Source: a bacterium
GTDB taxonomy: Bacteria > Chloroflexota > Chloroflexia > Chloroflexales > Kallotenuaceae
Length of the DNA stretch: 32,773 bases
Assembly (NCBI GenBank): GCA_016781505.1
Contig: JADDQF010000124.1
Span: 6,909 to 39,681 of the forward strand
Direction: 5' to 3'
Both the position numbers and the translations under genes were made by a program. Below, one piece after another: positions 16,251-32,773 of this stretch. Every line of letters starts with the position of its first letter. The first letter of the stretch is position 1. The notes under the pieces were generated by a model. It had not been told where the DNA came from. It saw only the letters and a list, made by a program, of their open reading frames with translations, and did not search any database.

Positions 16251-16461
16251 CGGTCAGACTAATATCAGAAATACATCACAACGTTGCGCCCTCCGTCGCC
16301 GCCTTGCCCTGTCCCAAAAACCCTTAGGTAGCCGAGGACTTCAGCTCCACGACGACCACTGCGTAACTCCTTGCCGATACGAACAATCATGCCGCATGAC
16401 CGGTTGCCGGCCAACGTAGCAGCCACATATCAGCCGGCTATCAATTCCACGAAAGAGTTTC
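16251..16461 (+). other. Non-coding gap upstream of the second large membrane gene
   Basis: About 210 bases with lower coding character. Short open frames cross it but have no ribosome-binding site or recognisable protein. No terminator with a U-run is visible after the stop at 16250, so read-through into the next gene is possible in addition to its own promoter. Confidence 0.5.
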
Positions 16462-16470
16462 TGGTATAAT
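16462..16470 (+). promoter_or_regulatory. Extended -10 (TGGTATAAT) close to the start codon
   Basis: The same TGGTATAAT as at 13269, ending nine bases before ATG 16480. The predicted start leaves at most about three bases of leader. An in-frame TTG at 16471 lies too close to the -10 to be transcribed, which supports ATG 16480. Confidence 0.62.
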
Positions 16471-16479
16471 TTGCCCCCG

Positions 16480-18519
16480 ATGGCAACGACAACACTCGCA
16501 TCTTCCGCCGCCGAACGCCATACCCGCACCGGCGGCATTCATATATTTGGTCGGCCCAACCGTCTCCGTACGGATCTGCTGGCCCTGCTTGTGTTGCTCG
16601 GCGCGTGCCTCCTGAGCTTAGCCGTGGGCTATATGCAGCCGGCCCCGTTTGAGGTGGGGGTTGCAGGAAGGTACGCTACGCCGTATCTTCAGCAGTTCCA
16701 CGAGCCGGAAGCTCCAGCCGGCTCCCAAACACCAGCCTACCGTTGGACGCGCGAGCGCAGCAGCGTGTTGGCGCCGGGTTTCGGCCGCGGCGTGTGGCAG
16801 ACCAGCCTAACCCTGAGCAGTCCACAGCCGACTGGCCAGCCCAAACAGGTGGTGGTCGGCACGGATAGCCAACGCTGGGCGCTCCAGCTGCAGCCTGAGC
16901 CACGCGTGTATCAGCTGCTCACGCCGTCTGCCGGGGACCTTACCACGACCATTGAAGCACCCGGCGCTACCATTGGCAACGATCCGCGGATACTTGGCGT
17001 CGTTTTTGGCGGGATAGCCTTCGAGCCAGTGGTAACAGTCGCGTTTCCACCCTTGCTGTTGTTGCTGTACACCTCGGTAGCGCTCACGCTTGCCTTTGTG
17101 ACCCTGCGCCTGATTGGGCTGCCGGCTTGGCTGGCCGTGATCGGTCCGCTGTCCGGACTGCTTATTTTAGCCTCGGCGGTCGCTACGAACCGTGGGCCCA
17201 TGGGCTTGCTGATGCCCCGGCTGGCCATGTTGGCGATTTTCGGCCTGGTGTCCGTCTTTGCCCTGCAGTGGGTGTGGCGCTGGCTGGTGCAGTTGGGACG
17301 GCTGGCCCCGGAGCCGTGGCTGCTGCCCGCGCTGCTGGTTGCTTTTTATGTCGGCTTTTGGCTCAAATCCACCGGTCTGCTCTACCCGTACAGCTACACC
17401 AAAGATATTCCGTGGCATGTGCGCGACATCCAGCTCGTCTTGAGTGGCCGCTGGAGCGAGTTCTATCTGCCGAGCGCCTTCTCGTACGGCAAGATGCCGG
17501 TGCGTGAGTGGGGCAACAATCCACCGCTCTTGCCGTACTCGCCCTTCTTTCACCTTGTCGCTGCATCCTTGGCCGTCTTCCCCTGGGCGCTGGACCTCAG
17601 CGTCAACGTGTTTTCGGTTATCTTCGACGCCAACCGCGTTATTTTGATCGCGGCGCTGGCCTTGGCGCTTGGCCTCACGAGTCGGGGCGCGTTCCTGGCA
17701 GCGGCGTTGTACGCGGTCACGCCCTTTACCTTTATGCTGCATTCGTGGGGCAATGTGCCGACCACGTTTGGCATCTGGGTGACGCTGCTGGCGACCACAA
17801 TCCTCGTGCTGACCTTTGGCCGCTGGCATGAGCGTCGCGTCTTTGTGCTGCTGACGCTCGGCCTGCTGGCAGCGTTTCTGTTCTACTTCGTGATGGCCGT
17901 CTTTACCGGCTTCTTTGTGCTGTTTCTGGCGCTTGGCCTGCTGTGTGTGCCGCAAGCGCGGGCTCGGGCGGATCAGCCCGGGCAAATCCGGCCCTTGCTG
18001 GGCAGTGCCGCCTTGGCGCTCCTGTTGTCAATCGTGATCTACTACGGCTTCTTTATCCCTGAAATGATCGAGCGAACGCTGCCGTACGTAACCAGAACCG
18101 TCGCGCAGGGCCAGACCAACACGGGGCAGGATCAGCATATTTCGTTTGCGCAATACCTCGCCAATCACTACCGTCACATGGGCTACACCAGCTATCCCGT
18201 GCGGCATGGCGTTTGGCTGCCCGTTGTGCTTGCAGTGCCTGGGCTCTGGCTGCTGCGTAAACAACGCTTTGGGCTGCTGGCGATTGGCGCGTGGCTGCTG
18301 GTCGCCCTCGTTTTCTTTGTTGTGGGCCTCCGCGTCTCGATGGTTGACAAGTACATCTTTTACGCGGCGCCTGCGCTCGCCATTTGCACGGCGGCTCTGT
18401 TTGAGCGCTGGTGGGAACGTAGCCGGCTGGTGCCGATCGCGATCACGGCCGTGTATCTGCTGACCTTTGTTTCGGCGATGGATATTTGGATCCAGCGCTT
18501 GCAGCGGGTGACAGGATGA
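16480..18519 (+). CDS. Polytopic membrane protein, GT-C-like, with beta-domain after the first span
   Basis: 679 residues. One membrane span (about 32-51) is followed by an outer beta-rich domain (55-180), with VYQLLTPSAGDLTTTIEAPG and ND168PRILGV. About ten or more spans follow. YPYSYTKDIPWHVRDIQLVLSGRW in a large loop has an acidic residue followed by His/Arg, as in polyprenyl-sugar-using membrane transferases, and WGNNPPLLPYSPFFHL resembles the second loop of such enzymes. Function is inferred from fold style and neighbourhood only. Its stop overlaps the next start (ATGA), so the methyltransferase that follows is co-translated. Confidence 0.6.
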   Translation: MATTTLASSAAERHTRTGGIHIFGRPNRLRTDLLALLVLLGACLLSLAVGYMQPAPFEVGVAGRYATPYLQQFHEPEAPAGSQTPAYRWTRERSSVLAPGFGRGVWQTSLTLSSPQPTGQPKQVVVGTDSQRWALQLQPEPRVYQLLTPSAGDLTTTIEAPGATIGNDPRILGVVFGGIAFEPVVTVAFPPLLLLLYTSVALTLAFVTLRLIGLPAWLAVIGPLSGLLILASAVATNRGPMGLLMPRLAMLAIFGLVSVFALQWVWRWLVQLGRLAPEPWLLPALLVAFYVGFWLKSTGLLYPYSYTKDIPWHVRDIQLVLSGRWSEFYLPSAFSYGKMPVREWGNNPPLLPYSPFFHLVAASLAVFPWALDLSVNVFSVIFDANRVILIAALALALGLTSRGAFLAAALYAVTPFTFMLHSWGNVPTTFGIWVTLLATTILVLTFGRWHERRVFVLLTLGLLAAFLFYFVMAVFTGFFVLFLALGLLCVPQARARADQPGQIRPLLGSAALALLLSIVIYYGFFIPEMIERTLPYVTRTVAQGQTNTGQDQHISFAQYLANHYRHMGYTSYPVRHGVWLPVVLAVPGLWLLRKQRFGLLAIGAWLLVALVFFVVGLRVSMVDKYIFYAAPALAICTAALFERWWERSRLVPIAITAVYLLTFVSAMDIWIQRLQRVTG

Positions 18520-19400
18520 CCGACACAACTTTGGGTCAGCCATCTGGAGCCGCACTTGCCGAGCCAACTCTAGCAGCGCTGATCGACCCATGGCTGCAAC
18601 ACATGCGCTGGCGGGCTGATTTCGCCGACTGGCGGCACAAGCGGCTGCGGAGCGAGGAATTCCAAACCGAAGCGCTGGCGATGATCACGGAGGTTGCCGG
18701 TTCGCTGGCGGGACGACAGGTGCTTGACCTGGGCTGTGGCATGGGTGGTTTTGCTGTCGCTGCGGAGCTAGCCGGCGCCGATGTGACAGCACTGGATTAC
18801 AATCCGGCCTACTGTGCGATTACGGCTGTACGCGGCGATCAGTATGGGCTACACATGCCCGTTATGCGCGCTGCGGGCGAGGCGCTCCCATTGCCGAGTG
18901 CCGCCTACGATATTGTCACCGCATGGGATGTGATCGAGCATGTGCAGCAGCCGGCGCCGATGCTGGCCGAGATTGGCCGCGTGCTGCGACCGGGTGGCTT
19001 TGTCTTTATCACGGCGATCAACCGCTTTGCGTTCCGCGATCCGCACTACCACCTCCCGCTGATCAACTACTTGCCGCGTCCACTCGCCGAATTTTTGATC
19101 GCTGGCGTTGGCCGGTCCAAGCGCGCCACCGCCTTCCGTGATCGCCAGCGCCTCAGCGAGATGCATTACTACACCTATGTCGGCTTTGAGCGTTTGGCAG
19201 CGCAGTACGGCTTGACGACCCGCGATCTGGATGCTGAGCGTGTGCTGCGCGGCGACCTCGCACCCAAGCGCCAAGCGCGGCGCACAATCCTACAGGTGCT
19301 GGAGCGGCTGGGGCTTACGCTGCCGCTGTACCGGGTGTACCGGGCGCTGTATCAGGGCACGTACCGGCTGGTGCTGGTCAAGGATCGTTCCAATGGCTAA
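18516..19400 (+). CDS. Class I SAM-dependent methyltransferase (first of three)
   Basis: 294 residues. ATG 18516 overlaps the previous stop by four bases (ATGA). Motif I is VLDLGCGMGGF (69-79), followed by ADVTALDYNP for motif II, then LPLPSAAYDIVTAWDVIEHV and IGRVLRPGGFVFITAINR, a typical UbiE/type-11 methyltransferase order. The C-terminal 110 residues are basic (KRQARRTILQVLERLGL, VYRALYQGTYRLVLVKDRS), possibly a membrane-surface or acceptor-binding part. Placed between a GT-C-like protein and a flippase, it most likely methylates a sugar or lipid-linked glycan. The acceptor cannot be read from sequence. Confidence 0.87.
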   Translation: MTDTTLGQPSGAALAEPTLAALIDPWLQHMRWRADFADWRHKRLRSEEFQTEALAMITEVAGSLAGRQVLDLGCGMGGFAVAAELAGADVTALDYNPAYCAITAVRGDQYGLHMPVMRAAGEALPLPSAAYDIVTAWDVIEHVQQPAPMLAEIGRVLRPGGFVFITAINRFAFRDPHYHLPLINYLPRPLAEFLIAGVGRSKRATAFRDRQRLSEMHYYTYVGFERLAAQYGLTTRDLDAERVLRGDLAPKRQARRTILQVLERLGLTLPLYRVYRALYQGTYRLVLVKDRSNG

Positions 19401-21018
19401 AACCGTCCCGGCTGCGAAACCTGCGCTTGCCAAAGAGGCCGGCCAGGCTGTGCTGTGGAACATGGCCTTCCTGCCACTTAAGCTGCTAGCCGATATCGGC
19501 GTGACCCTGCTGCAGCTGAATCTGCTGCTGCCCGCGGCCTTTGGCGTGTTGGCGATTATTCGCGCTGGCGTTAGCCTCCTGGGTACCTGGATCGACCTCG
19601 GCATTGAGCGGGCGCTGCCCAAATTCATTCCTGAAGTTCAACGGGACAGCGGACGTGCTGGCGTCCGCTGGCTGCTCGGCCGGGTCATGCTGGTTAAGCT
19701 GGCGGTTCTGGTGATCGTGGCGCTGCTGCTTTGGCTGTTGAGCGATACCTTTTTGGCCTATCTCGCCGGGGAAGTGCTGACGGCCGACAAATTAACCGAC
19801 GCCGACCGGCAGCGCCTCCTGGCACAGCTCGATCCCAACGGCAACGGCTGGATCTTCGTTGCGGCCGTCGTTGTGCTGCTGGTGCTCGGCTCGGTCTATG
19901 ACGTGCTGATGGCCTATCTGATCAGCTACTTCAAGCAGCGCGCCTGGAACAGCATTGGCTTGGCCAATACGCTGGTGCAGCCACTGCTGATTGGTGCGGC
20001 GGTGCTGCTGGGCTGGGACATTACCGGCGTGGTGCTGGCGATGGTCTTTACCGCGGTCTTTGGCGTTGTGATGGCCGCATGGCAGGTTGGCCGCGTGGCA
20101 ATGGGGGATTCCCACCCGACCGATCTTGCAGCGCCGCCGCACACCATTATCCGGCGCTTCGTGCCCTACTCGTCGCTGTCATATCTTTTCAACCTGAGCG
20201 ATATCGCCGCCAGCTACGTGTTTGTGATCTTCTTTATGCAAGGTTTGGAGGAAGCGGCGATCCTGTCTGTCGCGGCCAACCTGGCCCGGCAGATCTTGAC
20301 CTACCTGTACACGCCGATGCAGGGCCTGCAAGTGCCGCTCTTTACGCGGGCTCGCTCGGGTGAAGGCGCGACGCTCCCGGGCGCCTACGCGGCGGTCTGC
20401 CGACTGCTGCTCCTGTTGTTGATCCCCGGCAGCATCGGGCTGATGAGTCTAGCCCGGCCGCTTGTGCTGGCGCAGTATCCGCAGTATGTCGCCGCCGTTT
20501 CCGCTATTGTGCTGCTTACTCCATTGCTCTTCGCCGAATCGCTGCTGGCAACCTCGCAGAATGCCCTCATGGTGTCGGAGCGTTACCTGCCGATTATTGT
20601 TTCGCGAGTGCTGGCCTTCACCAGCATCCCGCTGGCCGCCGTGCTCGTGCCGCGGTACGGCGTTCTGGGCGCCGCCGCGGCTATTGGTGGAGCGCGTGTA
20701 CTGGCGGGTCTGGTGGTCTTTGTGGCGGGGCGGCGGCTGCTGGAGCTTAAGTTTCCCTGGGCCTTTGCACTGCGGCTGGCTGTCGCGTCCGCGATCATGG
20801 CGCTCGTGCTGCTGCCACTGGCCGGCCTTCTGCCGACCTCGGTGACGACGCGTGGGGAGCAGCTTGGGCTCTTCGTAGCCACAATGAGCGTTGCCGCCGT
20901 GGGTGGAGCCGTCTTTTTGGTCAGTCTGCGGCTCCTGGGTGGCCTCGATCAGCGGGATCGGCAGCAGCTTGCGGCTACCCGTTTACCGCTCAAGGGCGTG
21001 CTGCTCAAGGTGTTGTAG
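19393..21018 (+). CDS. Polysaccharide / oligosaccharide flippase (Wzx/MurJ-like MOP superfamily)
   Basis: 541 residues with about 14 hydrophobic segments. The N-terminal part (QAVLWNMAFLPLKLLADIGVTLLQLNLLLPAAFGVLAI) follows the MOP-exporter pattern, and a middle segment (FVPYSSLSYLFNLSDIAASYVFVIFF) starts the second half, as in Wzx. Such proteins move undecaprenyl-linked sugars across the cytoplasmic membrane. A charged insertion (about 120-150; EVLTADKLTDADRQRLLAQLDPNGNG) between early spans is unusual. ATG 19393 lies inside the end of the methyltransferase gene (eight-base overlap), which fits tight co-expression; the frame opens earlier but that part is a shadow of the methyltransferase. 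Confidence 0.82.
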   Translation: MAKTVPAAKPALAKEAGQAVLWNMAFLPLKLLADIGVTLLQLNLLLPAAFGVLAIIRAGVSLLGTWIDLGIERALPKFIPEVQRDSGRAGVRWLLGRVMLVKLAVLVIVALLLWLLSDTFLAYLAGEVLTADKLTDADRQRLLAQLDPNGNGWIFVAAVVVLLVLGSVYDVLMAYLISYFKQRAWNSIGLANTLVQPLLIGAAVLLGWDITGVVLAMVFTAVFGVVMAAWQVGRVAMGDSHPTDLAAPPHTIIRRFVPYSSLSYLFNLSDIAASYVFVIFFMQGLEEAAILSVAANLARQILTYLYTPMQGLQVPLFTRARSGEGATLPGAYAAVCRLLLLLLIPGSIGLMSLARPLVLAQYPQYVAAVSAIVLLTPLLFAESLLATSQNALMVSERYLPIIVSRVLAFTSIPLAAVLVPRYGVLGAAAAIGGARVLAGLVVFVAGRRLLELKFPWAFALRLAVASAIMALVLLPLAGLLPTSVTTRGEQLGLFVATMSVAAVGGAVFLVSLRLLGGLDQRDRQQLAATRLPLKGVLLKVL

Positions 21019-21035: not shown

Positions 21036-22583
21036 ATGAGTACACGAACGATTAATCCACCAACTCGGGCTGTGCGTTCCCAAGCACTGCCAATCACGGC
21101 CTGGATTGACCAGCACGTCCGTTTGTTGCTGACGGTGCTGATTGTTGGCTGGATCGCGGTGTTCGGCGTGGCGGCCGTGCGCAAGTTCCAGCAATATGAG
21201 ATGGGCTTCGACGTCGCGCTGATCCAGCAGATCATCTGGAATACCCTGGAGGGTCGGCCCTTTGAAACGCACGCCTACGATCACACCAAGAACATTTTGG
21301 GCACCGACTCGTTTCTGATCCATCTGATCTTCGTTCCGTTCTATGCCATCTTTCCCAACCCGGCTACGCTGTTGGTGGTGCAAACGGTCATTGTCGGCAC
21401 GAGCGCGCTGGCCGTGTACCTGCTCGCGCGCGAGCATCTCCGTCAGTCTTGGGCAGCTTTGGCCTTCGCGGCGGTGTATCTGGCGTATCAGCCCGTCATG
21501 TACGGCAACTTGTACGAGATTCGCGAGCGGGTGCTGGCGATGGCCTTTGTGCTTTGGATTTTGCTGTGTATCCAACGCCGCTGGTTCTGGCCGATGCTGA
21601 TTCCAATGGTGCTGGCGCTGTTGTGCCGGCTCGATACCACCATCGGGATTGCGCTCGTCGGTGTGTATGGCCTGCTGTTGCGCTGGAGGCGCCCTCAGAA
21701 CGTGGAGGCTAGTGCGCAACGCGTGGAGGAGCCAGTGCCTTGGCGTTTCGGGCTGACGTTGATCGGCAGTGCGGTGGTGTGGTACCTGTTCGTTACCAAG
21801 ATCATGGTGCCGCATTACACCGACCGGCCGGGCTACATGTTCTTGGAGCACTACCGCCAGTTCGGCGATACCATTGGCGAGATTGTTGTCAACATTATCG
21901 CCAATCCGTTCAACACGCTGAGCATTATGCTCACGTCTGCCAAGCTGTGGTTTTTGCTCGGTATGTTTTTGCCGCTGGCGTTTTTGTCGCTGCTGAACTG
22001 GCGTCTGCTGCTGGTGATGCTCCCTTTGTATGGCCTGAATCTGTTAGCGCCGCGCAAAATCCAGTGGGATGTGTACCACCATTACCAGGGCTTGATCGTG
22101 CCGCTGATGGTGCTGGCGGCGATTACCGGGCTGGCGTTCCTTGCGCGCCGCCGTGTGTTCGGCCAGCAGACGCTGCGCTGGGGCGTTGCCTCGCTGCTGC
22201 TAAGCACGCTTGCCAGCCAGGTGCTGTTTGATAATCCGCTGCCGGGTCTGCTGAGGCACTGGGCGCCGACCACGCGCGAAATTTCGGCGAACGAGCTGGT
22301 TGCGCAGCTGCCGGATGATGTTCCAGTCGCGGTCGGCAGTTTGCTGGCTCCCCACATCTCGCCCCGCCGTGATATTTATTTGGTGCCGGGCGGTGATTTC
22401 TTCTATGTCGCCGATCCGTTCGGCAAGGCCGAGTACGCGCTGGTCGACATGCAGAAGGAGCACGAACGCACCGCAACCGAGGCTGCCATCGGCAGTGGCG
22501 GCTGGTGTGTCGTCGATAGCAAAGCAAACTATCTTTTGTTAAGGAAGCAAACCGGCGCTCAAGGCGAGCGCTGCGGATTGTAA
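21036..22583 (+). CDS. DUF2079 membrane protein (copy 1)
   Basis: 515 residues with roughly ten membrane spans. Family features are KFQQYEMGFDVALIQQIIWNTLEGRPF (50-76), with Asp59 in the first outer loop. Next come the span pair around LLVVQTVIVGTSALAVYLLAREHL, the NLYEIRERVLAMAFVLW element and the late loop LAPRKIQWDVYHHYQGLIVP. The C-terminal soluble part (LPDDVPVAVGSLLAPHISPRRDIYLVPGG) is the usual end domain. DUF2079 proteins resemble GT-C transferases and sit in glycan clusters, but no activity is established. It begins 17 bases after the flippase stop with a weak ribosome-binding site, so it is probably in the same operon. A second copy lies at 25628. Confidence 0.82.
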   Translation: MSTRTINPPTRAVRSQALPITAWIDQHVRLLLTVLIVGWIAVFGVAAVRKFQQYEMGFDVALIQQIIWNTLEGRPFETHAYDHTKNILGTDSFLIHLIFVPFYAIFPNPATLLVVQTVIVGTSALAVYLLAREHLRQSWAALAFAAVYLAYQPVMYGNLYEIRERVLAMAFVLWILLCIQRRWFWPMLIPMVLALLCRLDTTIGIALVGVYGLLLRWRRPQNVEASAQRVEEPVPWRFGLTLIGSAVVWYLFVTKIMVPHYTDRPGYMFLEHYRQFGDTIGEIVVNIIANPFNTLSIMLTSAKLWFLLGMFLPLAFLSLLNWRLLLVMLPLYGLNLLAPRKIQWDVYHHYQGLIVPLMVLAAITGLAFLARRRVFGQQTLRWGVASLLLSTLASQVLFDNPLPGLLRHWAPTTREISANELVAQLPDDVPVAVGSLLAPHISPRRDIYLVPGGDFFYVADPFGKAEYALVDMQKEHERTATEAAIGSGGWCVVDSKANYLLLRKQTGAQGERCGL

Positions 22584-23414: not shown

Positions 23415-24230
23415 ATGCAACCCGTTAAACTTTCTGCACTACGCAGCATCATGTACGAAATCGCGATCAACGGCTGGAATGTGCTGGTTGAAACACGCAA
23501 CGACTTTAGCTTGTGGCGGCTGATCGAGTATCCCAAAATGACCGAGTATCTTGAGCTCAAGCCCGGCGACAGGGTTTTGGACATCGGCTCCGGCACCTCG
23601 TCGTATCCGCTGATGCTGACCCACGAAGGCGTTGACGTCGTGGTGGTGGAGCTGGACGCCGACCGTGTGCGCTGGCAGGAGGCCAAGGCCGCCGAGGGCA
23701 AGGCGGGCTCGGGGCGGCTCTTCGCGGTCGTGGGCGATGCCTCGTGCCTACCTCTGCGCGATGCCACCTTTGAGCGGGTCACATCCATCTCGGCGATAGA
23801 GCATATGCACGACGATGTTGCCGTGGGCGCCGAAATCAGCCGGGTGCTCGCTCCGGGCGGCCTTGGGGCGATCAGCGTGCCCTACACCAAGACCGAACGT
23901 TCGTCCTTTTTTGCCGGGCTCAAGCGCTTCCAAAAGATCAAGCGGAACGAGTTTGTCCAGGAAGGCAAAGGCACGCTGGTCCGTTTTTATACCGACGCCG
24001 ATGTCGAGCAGCGCTTTGGCTCGGGCGTGGGTTGCCGCATCACCAAACGCTCGTTCTTTGGCCGTAAGCTGCTCAACGATTGGTATCACGAGTCCCGGCT
24101 CAATCGCTACTGGCGCTCGTTTATCTTAAAAGACTGGCTGCTGGCTACCGTTGTCCATTCGCTCGAAGAGCGCTTGCTGGCGCATCAGGAACCGTTCGAC
24201 ATCATGTTCCAGGTGGAGCGCGTCGGTTGA
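23415..24230 (+). CDS. Class I SAM-dependent methyltransferase (third of three)
   Basis: 271 residues, preceded by AAGGAAA as ribosome-binding site. Motif I is VLDIGSGTSSYPLML (54-68), followed by VDVVVVELDADRVRWQEAKA, a motif II with Glu as the ribose-binding acid. LPLRDATFERVTSISAIEHMHDD and ISRVLAPGGLGAISVPYT complete the fold. The C-terminal extension (KRFQKIKRNEFVQEGKGTLVRFYTDADVEQRF, then WLLATVVHSLEERLLAHQEPFDIMFQ) is shared with sugar- or lipid-modifying methyltransferases of this size. The stop TGA overlaps the TTG start of the glycosyltransferase, which implies co-translation and a shared pathway. Confidence 0.85.
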   Translation: MQPVKLSALRSIMYEIAINGWNVLVETRNDFSLWRLIEYPKMTEYLELKPGDRVLDIGSGTSSYPLMLTHEGVDVVVVELDADRVRWQEAKAAEGKAGSGRLFAVVGDASCLPLRDATFERVTSISAIEHMHDDVAVGAEISRVLAPGGLGAISVPYTKTERSSFFAGLKRFQKIKRNEFVQEGKGTLVRFYTDADVEQRFGSGVGCRITKRSFFGRKLLNDWYHESRLNRYWRSFILKDWLLATVVHSLEERLLAHQEPFDIMFQVERVG

Positions 24231-25477
24231 AAATTTTGTACGTCGTCGGGGCGTACGGGCAGCGCTACTTGGCTAACGAAATCCATCGCGAGCTGGTGCA
24301 GGAGTATAGCCGCCGCGGTCATCGTTGCATCGTGTATGCTGGTGTTACGCCGGATGAGCTTGGCGACGAGCCCGTCTCGTACCAGGATGGCGCGGTTGAG
24401 GTTCGTCGTCAGCTCTGCGATACCCGTGGACGGCACCGCCTTGCCGCCGAGCTTGGCCGCCGAGTGCTCCATTACCCGCGCTTTTTGCCGCTGTTACAAG
24501 GCTTACGCGCACTGCTGGCCGAACATCCCGACATCGACGTGATCCATGCCGACGCTGTGTATCCGATTGGGGCGATTGTGGCTATGGCAGCACTGGGGCA
24601 TCCGGCTGCGGTCGTGCCCAGTATCCATGGCGGCGACCTGATTAACTATCCGGGCTATGGCTATGGCCGCTTTCCGTTAACCCGCCAGCTGATTCGCTGG
24701 ACCTTTGGCCGCTCCACACTGGTGCGCGTCAACTCGCAGTTGATGGCGGTGGAGGCGCGAGCGTTAGGCTGCGAGCCAGCCAAGCTGCGCCCGATTTTGG
24801 TCAACATCGGCGACCGATTTTTTGCCGAAACAGTGCCCCTGGCCACCCGCCGCGCTGCTGCTCGTGCACTGGTCTGTGAGCGGCATGGCTTTGACCCCGC
24901 GGCGCCGCTGCTGGTCAGCACTGGCCGGTTGTTGCCGCTGAAAGGCTTTCACGACCTTGTTGCCGCGGTCAAGCTTGTGGTTCAAGCGGCGCCGGGGCTG
25001 CGGCTGGTGATCGCAGGGCCGAATTTCGTGGATCCGGTCGACGGCGACCAACGCGCCGCGCTCCATCGGGCGATCGCTGCCCATGGCTTGCAGCAGCACA
25101 TTCATCTCCGCGACAGCCTGCACTACGAATCGGAGATGGCGCGCTACCTAGCGGCGGCCGACCTGATGGTGGCGGTGGCGCATATCGAGGGCTTGAATCG
25201 GGTTGTAGCCGAGGCTGGCAGCCAGGGCACGCCTTCGATTGTGTCGACCATGACCGGCGTCGCGCCGTTGGTTGCGCAGCTCGACGCCGGTGTAGTGGTG
25301 CCTCCGCGTGATCCGGCTGCGCTTGCCGCCGCGTTGGCACGGTTGCTCGACTCTGGTTCAACCCTTGCCCGTCATGCCGCTAATGCTCGTCGCCTCGCCC
25401 AGCGCTTTCGCTCGGTCGTGGTTGCCGACGAACTGTTGACGCTGTACACGGCAGCGAAGAACGCACGGCTCGGCTAA
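24227..25477 (+). CDS. GT4-family (GT-B fold) glycosyltransferase, TTG start
   Basis: 416 residues. The natural N-terminus MKILYVVGAYGQRYLANEIHREL begins at TTG 24227, which overlaps the methyltransferase stop (TTGA); the frame opens at 24080 but that region is shadow. The N-terminal domain ends near VVPSIHGGDLI. The C-terminal Rossmann domain carries VSTGRLLPLKGFHDLV (230-245), LVIAGPNF and the nucleotide-sugar motif E321GLNRVVAE329 (EX7E), followed by GTPSIVSTMTG. It transfers a sugar from an NDP donor to a growing glycan in the cytoplasm. Donor and linkage cannot be deduced. A GGTGGAG stretch upstream may serve as ribosome-binding site. Confidence 0.87.
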   Translation: MKILYVVGAYGQRYLANEIHRELVQEYSRRGHRCIVYAGVTPDELGDEPVSYQDGAVEVRRQLCDTRGRHRLAAELGRRVLHYPRFLPLLQGLRALLAEHPDIDVIHADAVYPIGAIVAMAALGHPAAVVPSIHGGDLINYPGYGYGRFPLTRQLIRWTFGRSTLVRVNSQLMAVEARALGCEPAKLRPILVNIGDRFFAETVPLATRRAAARALVCERHGFDPAAPLLVSTGRLLPLKGFHDLVAAVKLVVQAAPGLRLVIAGPNFVDPVDGDQRAALHRAIAAHGLQQHIHLRDSLHYESEMARYLAAADLMVAVAHIEGLNRVVAEAGSQGTPSIVSTMTGVAPLVAQLDAGVVVPPRDPAALAAALARLLDSGSTLARHAANARRLAQRFRSVVVADELLTLYTAAKNARLG

Positions 25478-25627: not shown

Positions 25628-27163
25628 GTGGGCAAAACCGACGCACAGCTTGCCGCTGCGGCAACTGTTGCCAGTAACTCAGCCTGCCAACCCAGCACAA
25701 CGCTTCCAGTCAGCGAACGGCCCAGGATTGGGTCGCGTTGGCATCTTTCCGAAACGGCATGCAAACGTCTGCTGGTAATGGTTGTGGTCGGCTACGCGGT
25801 GTTGTTTTCGCTGGCATCGTCGGCCAAGTATTGGCTGTTTGGCCAGGGACACGACCTGGTGCTCCACGAGCAGGCGATTTGGAACACCCTCCACGGCCGG
25901 ATCTTTGAAGTAACCGGCTTTGTGCATCCTTCGCGCCTGTTCGGTTACGATCCCTACTTGATCGAGCTGCTGGTCGTGCCGATCTACGCATTGGTGCCGT
26001 CGGTGCATACGTTGTTTGTGCTGCAGTCGGTTGTGCTCGCGCTGGGTGCCCCGGCGGTATGGCGCATCGCTCGGGGCGTGGGGCTGGAACCGGTCGTAGC
26101 ACTCATCGCAGCTGTGCTGTATCTGCTGTATCCCACGGTGCAGTACACCAACCTGGATGCCTTTCGTGAGCGCTCCTTCGGGTTGTGCTTTTTCCTGTGG
26201 GCCATGTGGGCATTCCGGGAAGATCGGTGGCGCACGTTTCTGGTCTTTCTGGTGCTCCTGATCATCTGCCGTCTGGAAGCAGCGCTGTTTGCGAGCTGTT
26301 TCGGACTGTATGCGCTGCTCACCCGGCGGCCCTGGCGGTACGTGGTTGTGCCTTTGGTCCTGGGCCTGGGCTATTTCTTTATCGGCAACTTCGTGTTTGT
26401 GCCGCTGGTTAACCAGGGCCAGCCCGTCTCGTATGTGTATGAGTATTTCGCGCCGCTGGGCAACACCATGGGCGAGGTGGTGACCACGGCCATCACGCGG
26501 CCGCTCTACACCCTGACGGAAACCTGGAGCAGTGCGAAAGCAACGTATCTCGTGTTGCTGGTGCTGCCCCTCGGCGGCTTATCGCTGCTGGCGCCGCGCG
26601 AGCTCGTCTTTATGTTGCCGGTCCTTGGCCTGAACCTACTCGCCACCAAGCCGGAGCTGTCGAATGTCCGCTACTGGTATTCGGCGCTGCTGGTCGGGCC
26701 ATTGATTGTTGGCGCGATCGAGGGATGGCGCCGGCTCCAAGAATGGTGGCCACGCACTCGCCAGCAGCCGTGGCTCATCGCCGCTCCCGTTTTGGCCTGT
26801 ATGATCGTGGCGCATCTGATCACCCCCAATCCGGTGCTCTCGCTGGCGCGTCACCACGAGCCACCGGCCCGGCGTGCTGTGGCCCACGCTATTATCGCCC
26901 AAATCCCCCCAGACGCCCGGGTAGCGGCCAGTGGTCGGCTGGCGCCGCATCTTCTGCGCCGTTACCTGTACTACTATCCACTGGCAGACCAGGCGGTTCT
27001 GCCACAGCTCGACTACATCGTTGCGGATGTGGCGTCGTCCTCGTTCGACGATCCCCCGAGCCGGGCGCAGCTCGAAGCGTTACGGCGCAGCGATGAATGG
27101 GAACTGGTCCTTGACCAGCAAGGGTTTCAGCTGTTTAAGCGTCGGCCGTCCAGTACTCACTAA
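25628..27163 (+). CDS. DUF2079 membrane protein (copy 2)
   Basis: 511 residues from GTG 25628. It is a paralogue of the protein at 21036, with the same order of elements: GQGHD76LVLHEQAIWNTLHGRIF, LLVVPIYALVPSVHTLFVLQSVVLALGAPAVW, NLDAFRERSFGLCFFLW and the end domain IPPDARVAASGRLAPHLL. The N-terminal 45 residues are poorly conserved and Ala/Ser-rich, so a later start is possible, but no better ribosome-binding site is seen. Sequence differs widely from copy 1, so the duplication is old or the copies came separately. The secreted propeller gene begins 13 bases after its stop. Confidence 0.8.
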   Translation: MGKTDAQLAAAATVASNSACQPSTTLPVSERPRIGSRWHLSETACKRLLVMVVVGYAVLFSLASSAKYWLFGQGHDLVLHEQAIWNTLHGRIFEVTGFVHPSRLFGYDPYLIELLVVPIYALVPSVHTLFVLQSVVLALGAPAVWRIARGVGLEPVVALIAAVLYLLYPTVQYTNLDAFRERSFGLCFFLWAMWAFREDRWRTFLVFLVLLIICRLEAALFASCFGLYALLTRRPWRYVVVPLVLGLGYFFIGNFVFVPLVNQGQPVSYVYEYFAPLGNTMGEVVTTAITRPLYTLTETWSSAKATYLVLLVLPLGGLSLLAPRELVFMLPVLGLNLLATKPELSNVRYWYSALLVGPLIVGAIEGWRRLQEWWPRTRQQPWLIAAPVLACMIVAHLITPNPVLSLARHHEPPARRAVAHAIIAQIPPDARVAASGRLAPHLLRRYLYYYPLADQAVLPQLDYIVADVASSSFDDPPSRAQLEALRRSDEWELVLDQQGFQLFKRRPSSTH

Positions 27164-27176
27164 GAAGGGATTAACC

Positions 27177-28364
27177 ATGTCGTTCGCATTCCCGTGGTCG
27201 AACATGCGCGCCGCACGCGTAACGTATAGCCTGGTCGTGATGTTGTTCATGACGGCGATTGTGGGGCTGACGGTTGTTAACGCCGCAGTCATCGGGCCGA
27301 CTCTGAACGTTTCCAATGATGAGGGTGGTTCAACTCGGCCCCGCGTTGCGCAAGATCCAAACGGCAACGTCCACGTGGTGTGGGATAGCGCCGAAGGCTC
27401 GCGTGTTGTGCGCTACGCTAAAGGCACCTGGAACGGCGCGACGTATGTGTTCGGCCCCAGCGTGGAAATTGCCAATGTCGGCGGTTTCCAGTATTCCACG
27501 CCCAACATTGCTGTTGCGCCGAACAACACCGTCATGGTTGTGTGGAGTGATGGCACAATTCGGCTCCGCACCTGGAGCGCAGCGGCGGCCGTCCCTGGCG
27601 GCACAGCCGTCGGTCTGACTGGTGGTATTCAGCCCTCGGTCTATCCCGATGCCAACAGCAATTTCCATATTGCTTGGAGCGGTGATTTCCGGCTGCAGTA
27701 TTGCCAATGGAGCGGCACGGCGTGCTCCAATCGCGCCGCGTTCGATGATACCGAGAACGTCGGCAACCGCCCCGATATCGCCGTAGACAGCAACAACAAT
27801 GTGCATATCGTGTGGGATACCGGCCAGACAGTGAATTATCGAACACGTGCTGCTGGCGCTGCGAACTTCAGCGGAATTCAACCTATTGGTGGTGGCAACA
27901 GCGCGCAGATCGCCGCCGACGGCAAGGGCAATGTTCATATTGTTCGCAGCCAAAACTTCGACATTTATTACTGCTCCAAGACGATTGCTACCGGCTGCGG
28001 CAATCAACACATTATGGACGGGCTGAACGATGTCGAGCCGTCGATCGGCGCAACCCGAGGCGGCAACGTCGCTGTGGTCTTCCGTAGCTCCAGCGATGTC
28101 TTCTACGATGCGCTTGAAAATGGCGTGTGGCAGACCACTCGGCCAGCTGGCAACGGCTTTACCGTCGATGTGTCGGCTCGGCCGTACACTGGGCGTTTGT
28201 CGGCGGTGTGGGGGCAGGACTTCGATATTCAGCACCGCGCCATCAACGTTGCCTGTGCCGGTGGTCAAGCTTTGAAAAGCGAATCGGTTGTTGCCAGCGC
28301 TGCTACCGTCAAGCTGTATCTGCCATTCGTCTTCAACCAGCCAGCAACACCGACCGAGTGCTAG
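27177..28364 (+). CDS. Secreted seven-bladed beta-propeller protein, copy A
   Basis: 395 residues, with AAGGGA before ATG 27177. Residues about 13-36 are a signal peptide or anchor (YSLVVMLFMTAIVGLTVVNAA). Seven repeats of about 45 residues follow, recognisable by DPNGNVHVVW-like strands near 60, 115, 160, 204, 248, 295 and 340, so a seven-bladed BNR-like propeller is expected. Cysteines 176/183 (blade 3, LQYCQWSGTAC) and 266/274 (blade 5, IYYCSKTIATGC) form two local pairs conserved in the two paralogues downstream. The C-terminus ends KLYLPFVFNQPATPTEC, resembling the 'YLPLV' tail frequent in Chloroflexota secreted proteins. No catalytic sialidase arginine triad or Asp-box series is evident, so the role is likely binding or structure. 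Function unknown. Confidence 0.8.
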   Translation: MSFAFPWSNMRAARVTYSLVVMLFMTAIVGLTVVNAAVIGPTLNVSNDEGGSTRPRVAQDPNGNVHVVWDSAEGSRVVRYAKGTWNGATYVFGPSVEIANVGGFQYSTPNIAVAPNNTVMVVWSDGTIRLRTWSAAAAVPGGTAVGLTGGIQPSVYPDANSNFHIAWSGDFRLQYCQWSGTACSNRAAFDDTENVGNRPDIAVDSNNNVHIVWDTGQTVNYRTRAAGAANFSGIQPIGGGNSAQIAADGKGNVHIVRSQNFDIYYCSKTIATGCGNQHIMDGLNDVEPSIGATRGGNVAVVFRSSSDVFYDALENGVWQTTRPAGNGFTVDVSARPYTGRLSAVWGQDFDIQHRAINVACAGGQALKSESVVASAATVKLYLPFVFNQPATPTEC

Positions 28365-28393
28365 CTCCACGCTCACATCACACGGTTCGTCTG

Positions 28394-28424
28394 CTCAACA
28401 CGGCTCCACTGGAGCCGTGTTGGG
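28394..28424 (+). terminator. Perfect hairpin after propeller copy A
   Basis: CAACACGGCTCC-ACT-GGAGCCGTGTTG forms a 12-bp perfect stem (28396-28422), extendable by a U-G and a C-G pair. It is followed by GTTGTC rather than a U-run. An almost identical hairpin follows propeller copy B. Most likely a transcription end or mRNA 3' stabiliser. Confidence 0.6.
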
Positions 28425-28442
28425 TTGTCAAGCTACTGTTGC

Positions 28443-28470
28443 TTGAGACAAAGCTAAAATATGGTATCGT
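28443..28470 (+). promoter_or_regulatory. Promoter of the GT2 glycosyltransferase gene
   Basis: TTGAGA (28443-28448), a 16-base spacer and TATCGT (28465-28470) with an extended TGG before it. It lies just after the hairpin that ends the previous unit and gives a leader of about 40 bases before ATG 28517. Confidence 0.55.
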
Positions 28471-28516
28471 AGAGCGGCTCATCGGCACAAACGCTGGTTG
28501 AAAGTGTGAGAAGCGC

Positions 28517-29302
28517 ATGTTACTGTCGGTTATTATCCCGTGCTACAACGAGGAGCGGACGATTCGGACGATTGTTGACCAGGTCCATTTGGTCCAGCTC
28601 GACAAGGAAATTATTATCGTCGACGATTGCTCGCGGGATCGTACGTTTGCGATCGCGAACGAGATTGCCGCCGACGTGCCCAATGTGCATGTGCTGCGCC
28701 ACCCTCGTAATCGCGGCAAAGGCGATGCAATCCGCACCGGTCTAGCCGTCGCCAAAGGCGAGATCGTGATCATTCAGGATGCCGACCTGGAGTACGATCC
28801 CAACGATTATTATGCGTTGGTGCGGCCGATTGTGGAGCGCAAAGTTGATGTTGTCTTTGGCTCGCGGTTTATGGGCAGCCACACCGGCATGTATTTTTGG
28901 AATGCAATTGGCAATAAATTCTTGACGTTTCTGAGCAACTTTTTGTATAACGCCTGGATCTCAGATATGGAGACCTGCTACAAAGTGATGCGGACCGATA
29001 TTTTGCGCAGCTTGGGGCTTCGAAGCAACGATTTTCGGATCGAGCCCGAGGTCACGGCCAAGGTCTTGCGTCTAGGCTACCGCATCTACGAAGTTCCGAT
29101 CTCGTATGTTGGCCGCACCTACGAGGAAGGCAAAAAGATTCGGAAGCGCGATGGGTTCAAGGCAATCGTTACCTTGTTTGCGTATCGTGCTTGGAAAGGG
29201 CATAAGCCGGAGCTTCAACCGATTGCGTCGGATGCTGCCGCAGATGCGCTCCAAAGCATGCGCAAGTACGCCGTACGCAATCTTAACCCGCTCTCTTTGT
29301 AA
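28517..29302 (+). CDS. GT2-family glycosyltransferase, DPM1-like (polyprenyl-phosphate sugar synthase)
   Basis: 261 residues, GT-A fold. Motifs are LSVIIPCYNEERTI (3-16), EIIIVDDCSRDRT (31-43) with the nucleotide-binding Asp36/37, NRGKGDAIRTGLAVAKGE (65-82), the metal-binding D88-A-D90 in IIQDADLEYDP, and VVFGSRF (112-118). The late element GRTYEEGKKI (199-208) is typical of dolichyl/polyprenyl-phosphate mannose or glucose synthases. No membrane spans follow, so it is the short soluble type. Such enzymes make the lipid-linked sugar that GT-C membrane transferases use, which fits the GT-C-like and DUF2079 proteins in the same locus. It sits between two propeller genes with its own promoter. 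Confidence 0.88.
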   Translation: MLLSVIIPCYNEERTIRTIVDQVHLVQLDKEIIIVDDCSRDRTFAIANEIAADVPNVHVLRHPRNRGKGDAIRTGLAVAKGEIVIIQDADLEYDPNDYYALVRPIVERKVDVVFGSRFMGSHTGMYFWNAIGNKFLTFLSNFLYNAWISDMETCYKVMRTDILRSLGLRSNDFRIEPEVTAKVLRLGYRIYEVPISYVGRTYEEGKKIRKRDGFKAIVTLFAYRAWKGHKPELQPIASDAAADALQSMRKYAVRNLNPLSL

Positions 29303-29348
29303 GCTGTCCGCGACCCCCTCGGCGGCGCTGTTAGGTTGCCGCTGCTGT

Positions 29349-29378
29349 TTGGTGCCGCATCGAGCTCATTGTTATACA
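29349..29378 (+). promoter_or_regulatory. Candidate promoter of propeller copy B
   Basis: TTGGTG (29349-29354), an 18-base spacer and TATACA (29373-29378), which would give a leader of about 70 bases before ATG 29455. Match to consensus is moderate. Confidence 0.4.
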
Positions 29379-29454
29379 GCGCCCTGTCTGGCTGCCTTGG
29401 TCCGCAACGCGCCCATCTGCGCTCGACACGTGCGCTAGAAAGAAATGTTCCCGC

Positions 29455-31164
29455 ATGAGGCTTCAACAAACTCGAGTCACGCGTGTGGTGGTTGCGCTGG
29501 TCATGCTGTCGCTCGTGCTGTCTTTCGTTGGCTCAACCGCCCGCGCGGCGACCTTTAGCAACGTTGGAAACGTATCCAGGGATCCCGGCCTTTCGATCCA
29601 GCCGCGCACAGCGCAAGATCCCGACGGCAACGTGCACGTGGTCTGGGATGAAGAAGGTGCGCGGCAGGTGCTGTATGCCAAGGGCGTGTGGAACGGCACC
29701 GAGTATGTCTTTGGCACGCCCTACCAGATCGCCAGTGTCGGCTCCTTCGGGTACGCCACGCCGAATGTGATCGTCGCGCCCAACGGCACGCTCATGGTCT
29801 CGTGGACCCAGCGCGCAGGCGATACCGAGGTGGGCTATGTGCAAGCCTGGAACTCCCGCGCCGCCCAGCCTGGGGGCTCACCCATTCCCCTGGGTATCGG
29901 TATTCAATCCTCGCTTGCGGTTGACAGTGCCAGCCGCTTCCACCTTGCCTGGAATGGACAATTTCAAATCCAGTATTGTCAATGGGATGGCGGCGGTGGT
30001 TGTACCAAGCGTGATGCGTTTGGCGGCGGCGGCTCGACCAACAATCTGCCCGATCTGGCCGTTGACAGCAGTGATAACGTCCACGTCGTCTGGTACGGAG
30101 CCGGTAACGTTGTGCTGTACCGGGCCCGGCCTGCCAACGGCGAGTGGGGCAATGTCGAGCAGATCGACGGCGGAAACCTCGCCCAAATCGCAGCGGACCG
30201 CGAGGGCAATGTACACCTCGCCTGGAGCCGGGATTTCAACATCCAGTATTGCCGCAAAACGTTGACGACTGGCTGCACGGATGTCCGTACGTTCGACTTT
30301 GGCAGCGATGTTCGGCCAACCATTGCCGCCGACCCGAGCAACAACGTGCTGCTGGTGTTTCAAGATCTGCAGGCTCGGCAGTTGGTTTATGCGGCTCGTG
30401 AGAACGGCCAATGGTCGGCGCCCCAGAACTTTGCAAATGGCCCAACCTACCCGGATGTGACGGCACGGCCCTATACCAATCGCTTTTCGGTGGTGTGGAG
30501 CCGAGACTACGATATTCAGCTGCTAACGGTCTCGCCCGGTGCACCAGTCGCACCGCCGCCTCCGGCAGCGCCCGCACCTCCAGCCCCGCCAGCGCCCCAG
30601 GTGCCGTCACGTGTGTTTCCCGAAACGGGCCAAACCGTAAGTGGCCGGCTGCTCGACTATTGGGACCGCAATGGCGCGTTGCCCGTGTTTGGCTTCCCGC
30701 TCAATGCCGAGGGAGAGCGCCGTACACTGGATGGTACCTACCGTATGCAGCTCTTCGAGCGCAACCGGCTGGAGTTGCATCCCGAGAACGCTGCGCCGTA
30801 TGATGTGCTCTTGGGACGGTTAGGCGGCGATGTTTTGTATCAGCAGGGCCGTCCTTGGGAAACGTTGCCGCGTGAACAACCGCGCGCTGGCTGCAAGTAC
30901 TTCCCGGAAACGCAACATAATCTGTGTGAGCCATTCCTGGGCTATTGGCGCTCGCACGGCCTTGAGCTTGGCGATCCCGGCATTAGCGAGCGTGAAAGCT
31001 TGGCGCTCTTTGGGCTGCCCTTGACGAGCACCAACTTCGAGACGAATGGCGATGGGTGGCGCGGCGAGACCCAATGGTTTGAGCGGGCACGCTTCGAGTT
31101 GCACACCGAAAACCAACCGCCCTACCGGATCTTGCTTGGCCGGCTAGGAGCGGAAGTTCGCTAG
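29455..31164 (+). CDS. Secreted seven-bladed beta-propeller with Pro-rich linker and two FPETG/FGxP modules, copy B
   Basis: 569 residues. Signal peptide 1-32 (VVVALVMLSLVLSFVGSTARAA). Residues 45-358 are a seven-bladed propeller closely related to copy A, with cysteine pairs 175/183 (IQYCQWDGGGGC) and 266/274 (IQYCRKTLTTGC) at matching places. A Pro/Ala linker (362-384) leads to two C-terminal modules. The first starts VFPETGQTVSG (387-397) and runs through GALPVFGFPLN to LFERNRLELHPENAAPY and VLLGRLGGDV. The second starts YFPETQHNLCEPFLGYW (482-498) and runs through LALFGLPLT to WFERARFELHTENQPPYRILLGRLGAEV. The same module occurs twice in the M14 peptidase at 10244. The pattern resembles LGFP-type wall-binding repeats, so the modules may attach the propeller to the cell surface; this is inference. 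Weak ribosome-binding site (AGAAAG). Confidence 0.82.
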   Translation: MRLQQTRVTRVVVALVMLSLVLSFVGSTARAATFSNVGNVSRDPGLSIQPRTAQDPDGNVHVVWDEEGARQVLYAKGVWNGTEYVFGTPYQIASVGSFGYATPNVIVAPNGTLMVSWTQRAGDTEVGYVQAWNSRAAQPGGSPIPLGIGIQSSLAVDSASRFHLAWNGQFQIQYCQWDGGGGCTKRDAFGGGGSTNNLPDLAVDSSDNVHVVWYGAGNVVLYRARPANGEWGNVEQIDGGNLAQIAADREGNVHLAWSRDFNIQYCRKTLTTGCTDVRTFDFGSDVRPTIAADPSNNVLLVFQDLQARQLVYAARENGQWSAPQNFANGPTYPDVTARPYTNRFSVVWSRDYDIQLLTVSPGAPVAPPPPAAPAPPAPPAPQVPSRVFPETGQTVSGRLLDYWDRNGALPVFGFPLNAEGERRTLDGTYRMQLFERNRLELHPENAAPYDVLLGRLGGDVLYQQGRPWETLPREQPRAGCKYFPETQHNLCEPFLGYWRSHGLELGDPGISERESLALFGLPLTSTNFETNGDGWRGETQWFERARFELHTENQPPYRILLGRLGAEVR

Positions 31165-31191
31165 CAACCGCTCACCCCCAAGCAACCTATG

Positions 31192-31226
31192 CACAAACAC
31201 GGCTCCCACTGGGAGCCGTGTTTGTG
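31192..31226 (+). terminator. Perfect 16-bp hairpin after propeller copy B
   Basis: The left arm CACAAACACGGCTCCC and right arm GGGAGCCGTGTTTGTG pair without mismatch around the loop ACT. It is nearly the same sequence as the hairpin at 28394, including core and loop. No long U-run follows (TGTCC). It lies 27 bases after the stop codon. Confidence 0.65.
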
Positions 31227-31564
31227 TGTCCCGGCGTATCTGGTCCAAGCGGGGGAGTGCAAACCGAACGATCTGGCTATTTCTTCGACCCAGCACCCCT
31301 CGTACCATTAAGACCATTGCGAGACAGCGAACCGTAGCGGGCGGTCTGCCTCAGGCACCACATGAAACAGCCTGATGCAGGCTGTGAGCAGCGTAAACGA
31401 CATCCCCCTGCTTTCCCGCAGCACGGTCGCTTCGACGCTACCTTCTGGCTTGGCAGTCCGGTCCGTCCACGCGCTCAGCTCGCTGATCGGTCACCGAAAC
31501 CCGCGCCCCAAGCCGAGCCCAGGTGCCTGGTGCTGCGTTTTGAAAAAGGGAAACAGTTTTGAGT
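31227..31564 (+). other. Non-coding region upstream of propeller copy C
   Basis: About 340 bases without a supported gene. It holds a small perfect hairpin (ACAGCCT-GATGC-AGGCTGT, 31367-31385) and a nearby palindrome TGCCTCAGGCA. Short open frames are present but lack ribosome-binding sites and plausible protein. I do not see a convincing -35/-10 pair. Confidence 0.5.
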
Positions 31565-32773
31565 ATGAGATTCCACTATCGGCCGGCGTTGCGTGCTCCA
31601 CTCACGTGTCTGTTGCTGCTGGGCTTGATCGGTGTGGGCGCTATCACCCGCGCCGCGAGCTTGAGCCCGAACCAGAATATCTCCAACGATCCTGCGAATT
31701 CGCTCCAGCCACGCATCGCGCAAGACCCCGACGGCAACGTGCACGCGGTGTGGGTTGAGGATGATGGCGGCCGTAAAGTGCGCTACAGCAAAGGTGTCTG
31801 GAATGGCACGGCCTATACATTTGGCGCGAGCAATGTCGGCAGCTTCCAGTACTCGTTGCCCAACGTTGCGGTCGCGCCCAATGGCACGATCATGGTGGCG
31901 TGGAGTAACGGCGCGTTGCAGGTTAGAACCTGGAGCTCAGGCAGCAGTCAACCGGGTGGCGGCGTGAGCCAGATCAGCAGCGGTATTCAGCCCTCCATCG
32001 CGGTCGATAGCGCCAGTCGCTTTCACCTGGCGTGGAGCGGCGACTCCCTGATCCAGTACTGTCAGTGGGAAGGCACCAGCTGTACCAAACGCGACACCAT
32101 CTCGGGCGAGGCAGCGAATCGACCGGATATTGCGGTTGATAGCAACAATGGCGTGCATGTGGTTTGGGATGGCGGTGGTATTAAGTACCGTGCTCGTGCT
32201 GACGGCGCCAATTGGGGCGCAGTGCAAACGCTCAGCAATGGTATCAAGGCGCAAATTGCCGCGGATGGCCAGGGCACGGTCCATATCGTCTACAGCAACG
32301 ACTACAATATCCAATATTGCCGCAAAACCTTGGCTGGTGGATGCTCCGAGGCGCATACCATCGACGCCGGCAACGATCTTGATCCATCGGTTGGTGTAAC
32401 GCCGGCCGGCAGCGTCGTCGTCGGCTTTCGCGATGCAACGGCGGGTCTGCTCCGTTATGTCAGCAGGGAAAAAGGAACGTGGGGCGGCTCGCAGCAGATC
32501 GGGGGCGGCATTACCATCGACGTTGCCGCGCGGCTGTATGTTGAACGAGCTTCGCTGGTTTGGAGCCAGAATTACGAGATTCAACATGCGGTGGTCACGC
32601 TCGTGGCACCACCTCGGTTTACGGGTACTCTCACAATCAATGGTGGGGCAGCTACAACCAACCGCGCGCAGGTCACCGTTAACATCACCAATACGTCGAG
32701 CGAGGGCGTGCCGACCAGCTATAGTCTTGCCGATGGTCGCGATCCCGGCACGCCCAACGTGCCATTCAGCAAT
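31565..32773 (+). CDS. Secreted seven-bladed beta-propeller, copy C (3' end cut by window)
   Basis: 403 codons visible from ATG 31565, open to the window edge. An AAGGGAAA stretch lies upstream. Signal peptide 1-31 (LTCLLLLGLIGVGAITRAA). The propeller spans about 46-346 with the same seven-repeat order as copies A and B (DPDGNVHAVW, KGVWNGTAYTFG, IQPSIAVDSASRFHLAW, DIAVDSNNGVHVVWD, QIAADGQGTVHIVY) and cysteine pairs 166/173 (IQYCQWEGTSC) and 252/260 (IQYCRKTLAGGC). After VTLVAPPRFTG a different domain begins, TLTINGGAATTNRAQVTVNITN, which looks like the first strands of an Ig-like repeat found in bacterial surface proteins. Sequence is closer to copy B than to copy A in the cysteine loops. 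The remaining domains lie outside the window. Confidence 0.8.
   Translation, partial: MRFHYRPALRAPLTCLLLLGLIGVGAITRAASLSPNQNISNDPANSLQPRIAQDPDGNVHAVWVEDDGGRKVRYSKGVWNGTAYTFGASNVGSFQYSLPNVAVAPNGTIMVAWSNGALQVRTWSSGSSQPGGGVSQISSGIQPSIAVDSASRFHLAWSGDSLIQYCQWEGTSCTKRDTISGEAANRPDIAVDSNNGVHVVWDGGGIKYRARADGANWGAVQTLSNGIKAQIAADGQGTVHIVYSNDYNIQYCRKTLAGGCSEAHTIDAGNDLDPSVGVTPAGSVVVGFRDATAGLLRYVSREKGTWGGSQQIGGGITIDVAARLYVERASLVWSQNYEIQHAVVTLVAPPRFTGTLTINGGAATTNRAQVTVNITNTSSEGVPTSYSLADGRDPGTPNVPFSN

Follow-up and report, generated by a model that had tools for sequence, protein, structure and literature searches.

At the end of the analyzed window, which comes from a Chloroflexales bacterium, three neighboring genes encode secreted paralogous proteins, A, B and C, each with a seven-repeat head and a tail of its own. 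These proteins may well act at the cell surface or in the matrix, where the head would bind a glycan, most probably the polysaccharide made by the neighboring gene cluster, and the tails (a short LPxV ending with a terminal cysteine, FPETG/LGFP-like modules and an Ig-like stack) would link this polymer to differing partners or sites, by analogy with Bap1 and RbmC of Vibrio cholerae; we put the probability of the whole explanation at roughly 0.5. We infer the glycan binding, the likely ligand and an anchoring role for each tail, and the glycan-binding reading draws on the lectins matched by a structural model of the B head, the synteny with glycan genes, the pattern of heads and tails among related loci, the Bap1/RbmC precedent and the lack of an invariant catalytic residue. 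The window comprises the final 32,773 bases of the 39,681-base contig C14 (also G000:C14) in a draft genome of 4.18 Mb. The features that bear on the argument are as follows.

13284–18519, + strand: two large polytopic membrane proteins (13284–16250, weak PMT_2 match; 16471–18519) with which the surface-glycan cluster starts; identity to the counterparts on contig C32 of the same genome is 71% and 38%.
19390–21018, + strand: polytopic flippase-like protein with no family match, 30–32% identical to its equivalents on C32 and in genome G003 of the same genus.
21036–22583, + strand: DUF2079 membrane protein, copy 1.
23415–24230, + strand: SAM methyltransferase of the MT_c type, which recurs adjoining GT4 in related loci.
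24080–25477, + strand: GT4 glycosyltransferase, true start probably later; a GT4 recurs beside the family elsewhere.
25628–27163, + strand: DUF2079 membrane protein (PF09852), copy 2.
27177–28364, + strand: protein A, 395 residues by open reading frame, with a signal peptide (approximately residues 1–36), a seven-blade head and the short tail LYLPFVFNQPATPTEC with a cysteine end.
28314–28361, + strand: LPxV-type C-terminal tail of A with the terminal cysteine.
28396–28422, + strand: perfect inverted repeat CAACACGGCTCC-ACT-GGAGCCGTGTTG 3′ of A, a possible terminator with no T run after it.
28517–29302, + strand: GT2 glycosyltransferase (PF00535) between A and B; in NCBIfam it comes closest to AglJ and polyprenyl-phosphate hexose synthases, with scores below the cut-offs.
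29455–31164, + strand: protein B, 569 residues by open reading frame, with a signal peptide, a head (to approximately residue 360), a Pro/Ala linker and two FPET modules.
30613–31161, + strand: FPETG/FPETQ module pair of B, with an LGFP-like pattern.
31192–31226, + strand: perfect 15-bp inverted repeat 3′ of B, whose arms have ACACGGCTCC in common with the repeat after A.
31565–32773, + strand: protein C, with a signal peptide, a head and the beginning of an Ig-like tail; the contig end cuts the reading frame.
32618–32773, + strand: beginning of the Ig-like tail of C, of which the first ~53 residues are visible before the contig end.

The heads of A, B and C are 50–54% identical in pairwise comparisons over approximately 310 residues, and a tree groups the three proteins with 99% support. 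All three have a Sec signal at the N-terminus, read from the sequence, and seven repeats in the head. The likeness is not a generic effect of the repeats, since an A/B/C profile run against 301 genomes of the phylum gave matches in this genome only at E ≤ 1e-15; a genome scan with C as the sole query returned no match. Blades 3 and 5 each bear a cysteine pair in the hairpin, namely C176/C183 and C266/C274 in A, C175/C183 and C266/C274 in B, and C166/C173 and C252/C260 in C. The initial annotation had described the proteins as three secreted paralogues with signal peptides, seven repeats and paired cysteines in these two blades, which agrees with the data; the cysteine loops do lie at equivalent places, although their wording varies from the motifs given there, reading LQYCQW and YYCSKT in A. 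Its observation of three different C-terminal ends also holds, except that the second module of B starts with FPETQ and not FPETG. In matched parts, the three genes are 64–68% identical at the DNA level, from which an old duplication and gene conversion cannot be told apart as the origin of the copies. Neither of the hairpins after A and B was reported by a terminator scan, and both are without T runs.

In Pfam and NCBIfam the heads match only weakly to BNR-type families (BNR_4, SBBP and PDIAV_lipo), and naming them on that basis was dropped. The head of B, the only one folded, was modelled with three sequences at a mean head pLDDT of ~82. A closed seven-blade ring had been set beforehand as a check on the propeller assignment, and the model of B is a complete closed ring; A and C presumably share this fold, judging from their ~50% identity. 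Of the solved structures matched over the whole ring, the model is most like the CylK propeller (Z 35 over 319 residues) and the PLL-type lectins (Z 29–30 over ~300 residues, TM to target ~0.70); the BP39L and CV39L lectins and sugar-active propellers match as well. Seven-blade WD40-type rings reach scores similar to those of the lectins, and therefore the fold alone says little on the function of the head.

The same fold serves enzymes too, which speaks against the glycan-binding reading. Besides CylK, the B model matches structures of GH145 BT3686, PL-type lyases and sialidases, so that the heads might instead be hydrolases or lyases of the sialidase, GH145 or PL kind that trim the polysaccharide of the cluster. 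An Asp-box-like motif in 27 of the 30 family members outside the window and a weak profile match to Sialidase B point in the same direction. However, of the marks of GH33 sialidases, neither Asp-boxes nor the FRIP motif are present in A, B or C, no catalytic residue stands out as invariant across the family apart from the positions of the blade motif, and the conserved polar residues are few and lie at repeated blade positions. The heads also diverge to 18–28% identity between loci, which would be unusual for one conserved activity, and an enzymatic role appears unlikely.

Beyond the window, A, B and C appear to be distant members, divergent and locally duplicated, of a Chloroflexales family that combines the head with an Ig-like region and a C-terminal YLPLVxR. 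A profile of 27 such proteins (736–836 residues, with YLPLVxR or near variants at the C-terminus, and including P0007 from the same genus) matches A, B and C at E 6e-18, 1.5e-24 and 2e-28, respectively. As for the tail features of the family, C shows the cut beginning of the Ig-like tail, A has an LPxV tail, and B has other modules. Contig C32 and genome G003 each have one short head protein ending in LPxI...C and one long head-Ig protein. The C32 locus (L012, 1–10973) holds the glycan cluster once more in diverged form and, like C14, ends within the Ig tail. A named scan found 34 loci, among them ones in Chloroploca, Oscillochloris, Viridilinea, Chloroflexus and Roseiflexaceae. One locus in a record labelled Singulisphaera (Planctomycetota; L156) resembles those of the Roseiflexaceae and is possibly mis-binned.

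The gene neighborhood of the family is strongly conserved. In 20 loci that were picked by the Ig tail alone and whose neighbors were read afterwards, a PMT_2-like GT-C membrane protein adjoins the family in 19, spread over 10 of 11 genera, while a LamG-like secreted protein is found in 16 and a GT4 in 13; the genera are related, and the counts are thus not independent. The named set, which partly overlaps with this one, has the PMT_2-like GT-C in 27 of 34 loci. Methyltransferase and flippase genes also adjoin the family across the Chloroflexales, and the cluster in the window is of similar make-up to the related loci, with large GT-C-like membrane proteins, methyltransferases, a flippase-like protein and a GT4. 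The expected site of the GT-C 3′ of C lies beyond the contig end, and a search of the rest of the genome gave only a 33% homologue. Many copies of the PMT_2-like GT-C near the family (in L047, L048, L049, L054 and others) have the cysteine of a conserved LLFxRCRLxxNxC end as the last residue. The link to adjacent glycan genes suggested in the initial annotation is therefore borne out in its general form, but not for the GT2 that it had singled out as the partner: the GT2 is absent from almost all related loci, a unit of GT2 and propeller was consequently rejected, and the conserved partner is the PMT_2-like GT-C.

The same neighbors could be read differently, with A, B and C as glycosylated coat proteins that are decorated by the PMT_2-like GT-C together with a polyprenyl-phosphate sugar synthase, the GT2, and whose heads are structural. 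The most constant neighbor of the family is indeed a PMT_2-type GT-C, and the DPM1/AglJ-like GT2 sits between A and B; however, PMT_2-type proteins modify lipids and glycans too, and the GT2 is not kept in related loci, which leaves the coat proposal doubtful.

The glycan-binding reading is also consistent with how heads and tails are distributed. The heads cluster by locus in the tree, with support of 99 for A, B and C, 99 for the C32 pair and 97 for the G003 pair. Head identity between loci is 18–28% (C is 28% identical to C32 and 19% to G003), whereas the Ig tails are 68–77% identical; the visible start of the Ig tail of C, with 36–47 residues compared, is 75% identical to that of C32 and 68% to that of G003. 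Between loci, the sequences thus have a constant Ig tail and a variable head. When the C14 cluster is compared with that of C32, identity is 71% for the first membrane protein and ~28–35% for the flippase, GT4 and heads, which fits a variable center with conserved flanks. C32 could stem from a related strain within the assembly. A recent tail conversion was considered from the ends of the C14 and C32 contigs, both of which lie inside the Ig tail, but is not borne out by them, as the last 128 aligned bases are diverged and only the closing 8 are identical.

An independent instance of one head on different tails is found in G041, which we take to be Chloroflexus aggregans, G026 presumably being C. 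aurantiacus. Tandem units of a LamG and a head gene in C. aggregans are 96.6% identical at the DNA level over 2142 bases (L048, 3300–10100). The two heads are 100% identical over 371 aligned residues, but the tails are mutually 37% identical and each is ~71–72% identical to its own C. aurantiacus orthologue. From the sequences, the most fitting interpretation of the pair is that gene conversion has affected the head, a natural head transfer. In three other Chloroflexus genomes a comparable tract covers the LamG gene alone (87–97.5% DNA identity). A constant propeller with changeable anchors, as first proposed for A, B and C, therefore describes the window and the C. aggregans pair, where one kind of head has different tails, and is reversed between loci, where it is the head that changes and the tail that stays the same. 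The head divergence between loci and the head transfer would also fit variable recognition of a target outside the cell, such as mat partner cells or other surfaces, with the cluster an incidental neighbor, but strong synteny with glycan genes over ten genera makes this very improbable.

Taken by themselves, the tails of A, B and C are nothing odd, the FPETG module and the LPLV tail both being ordinary in Chloroflexales. The tail layout of A recurs in the short copies of C32 (LFLPLIHKGC) and G003 (VYLPMITK...PPTC), and a cysteine is the very last residue after the LPxV/I/M motif in all three short head proteins (27177–28361 of the window; L012, 1707–2966; L013, 4529–5821). The sortase substrate motif LPxTG is absent from A, B and the C fragment. 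The FPETG module is found in all 60 of 60 Chloroflexales genomes, with 6–40 matches per genome and 26 in this one. A pair of FPETG/LGFP-like modules as in B is also borne by an M14 zinc carboxypeptidase at 10244–11608 of the window. The FGLPL...E pattern of the LGFP repeat (PF08310) occurs in the modules of B as well; PF08310 gave no match to these modules and reached E 0.025 and 15.3 bits with the carboxypeptidase copy, below the Pfam cut-off of 22. A sequence search for a solved relative of the B modules found none, and an AF2 model of the modules alone with the M14 copy was unusable (pLDDT 36).

A strict DNA pattern for YLPLVxR followed by a stop, run on 41 genomes, matched 55 times, compared with a single match for the reversed control, and 28 of the 30 inspected matches lie at the ends of open frames. 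The ending is seen on many long, apparently secreted Chloroflexales proteins, for example L102 in this genome (C35:1100–1123). With a loose pattern for LP-type tails, a 330-kb sample of this genome gave 6 tails with 5 expected, which is not significant. YLPLVxR is possibly a C-terminal sorting signal that has had no name so far. PEP-CTERM and other exopolysaccharide-linked C-terminal sorting signals are likewise short motifs shared by many secreted proteins, and YLPLVxR, too, occurs here near glycan loci; it differs in closing the protein, with no hydrophobic helix or basic run after it.

A broader scheme may be drawn as well, in which an order-wide Chloroflexales system would match a variable glycan-reading propeller to a variable polysaccharide cluster, gene conversion would shift heads between conserved tails, and the GT-C and the YLPLVxR signal would handle attachment; we regard this extension as speculative and rather improbable. 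The cell surface and matrix of the Chloroflexales are poorly known. While this kind of protein is already known, a search of a limited literature collection found no paper on Chloroflexi surface propellers or O-mannosylation and no description of the head-Ig family and its synteny. The results tie a secreted protein family without a name to a surface-glycan locus that recurs among the filamentous, mat-forming Chloroflexales. With its one head on two tails, the C. aggregans pair lends itself readily to testing whether binding is determined by the head and location by the tail. The endings YLPLVxR and FPETG provide handles on protein attachment to the Chloroflexales surface.

Among known systems, the PLL-type lectins (Photorhabdus PLL, PLL2–5 and PHL; BP39L and CV39L) have the seven-blade fold in common with the heads, with Z 28–30 over ~300 residues, although the likeness is by the predicted fold of B and the identity to A, B and C is 10–16%. 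These lectins have no tails like those of A, B and C, and the hairpin cysteine pairs are a feature of the latter; sugar binding in PLL lectins takes place at conserved tryptophan-bearing H and P sites (PMC12203525). The C-terminal propeller of CylK, GH145 BT3686, PL-type lyases and sialidases share the fold of the B head as well, but are enzymes. The closest parallel in function would be Bap1 and RbmC, which differ in having eight blades, a beta-prism and mucin-binding domains, whereas A, B and C have seven repeats and match seven-blade propellers; the comparison concerns how the proteins may work and not their sequences. We know of no GT-C partner of Bap1 or RbmC. The initial statement that no described system has such a layout is nevertheless not quite right, as the two V. 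cholerae matrix adhesins are, like A, B and C, secreted paralogues with a propeller in common and differing other domains, and their propeller binds the organism's own matrix polysaccharide (PMC10102183).
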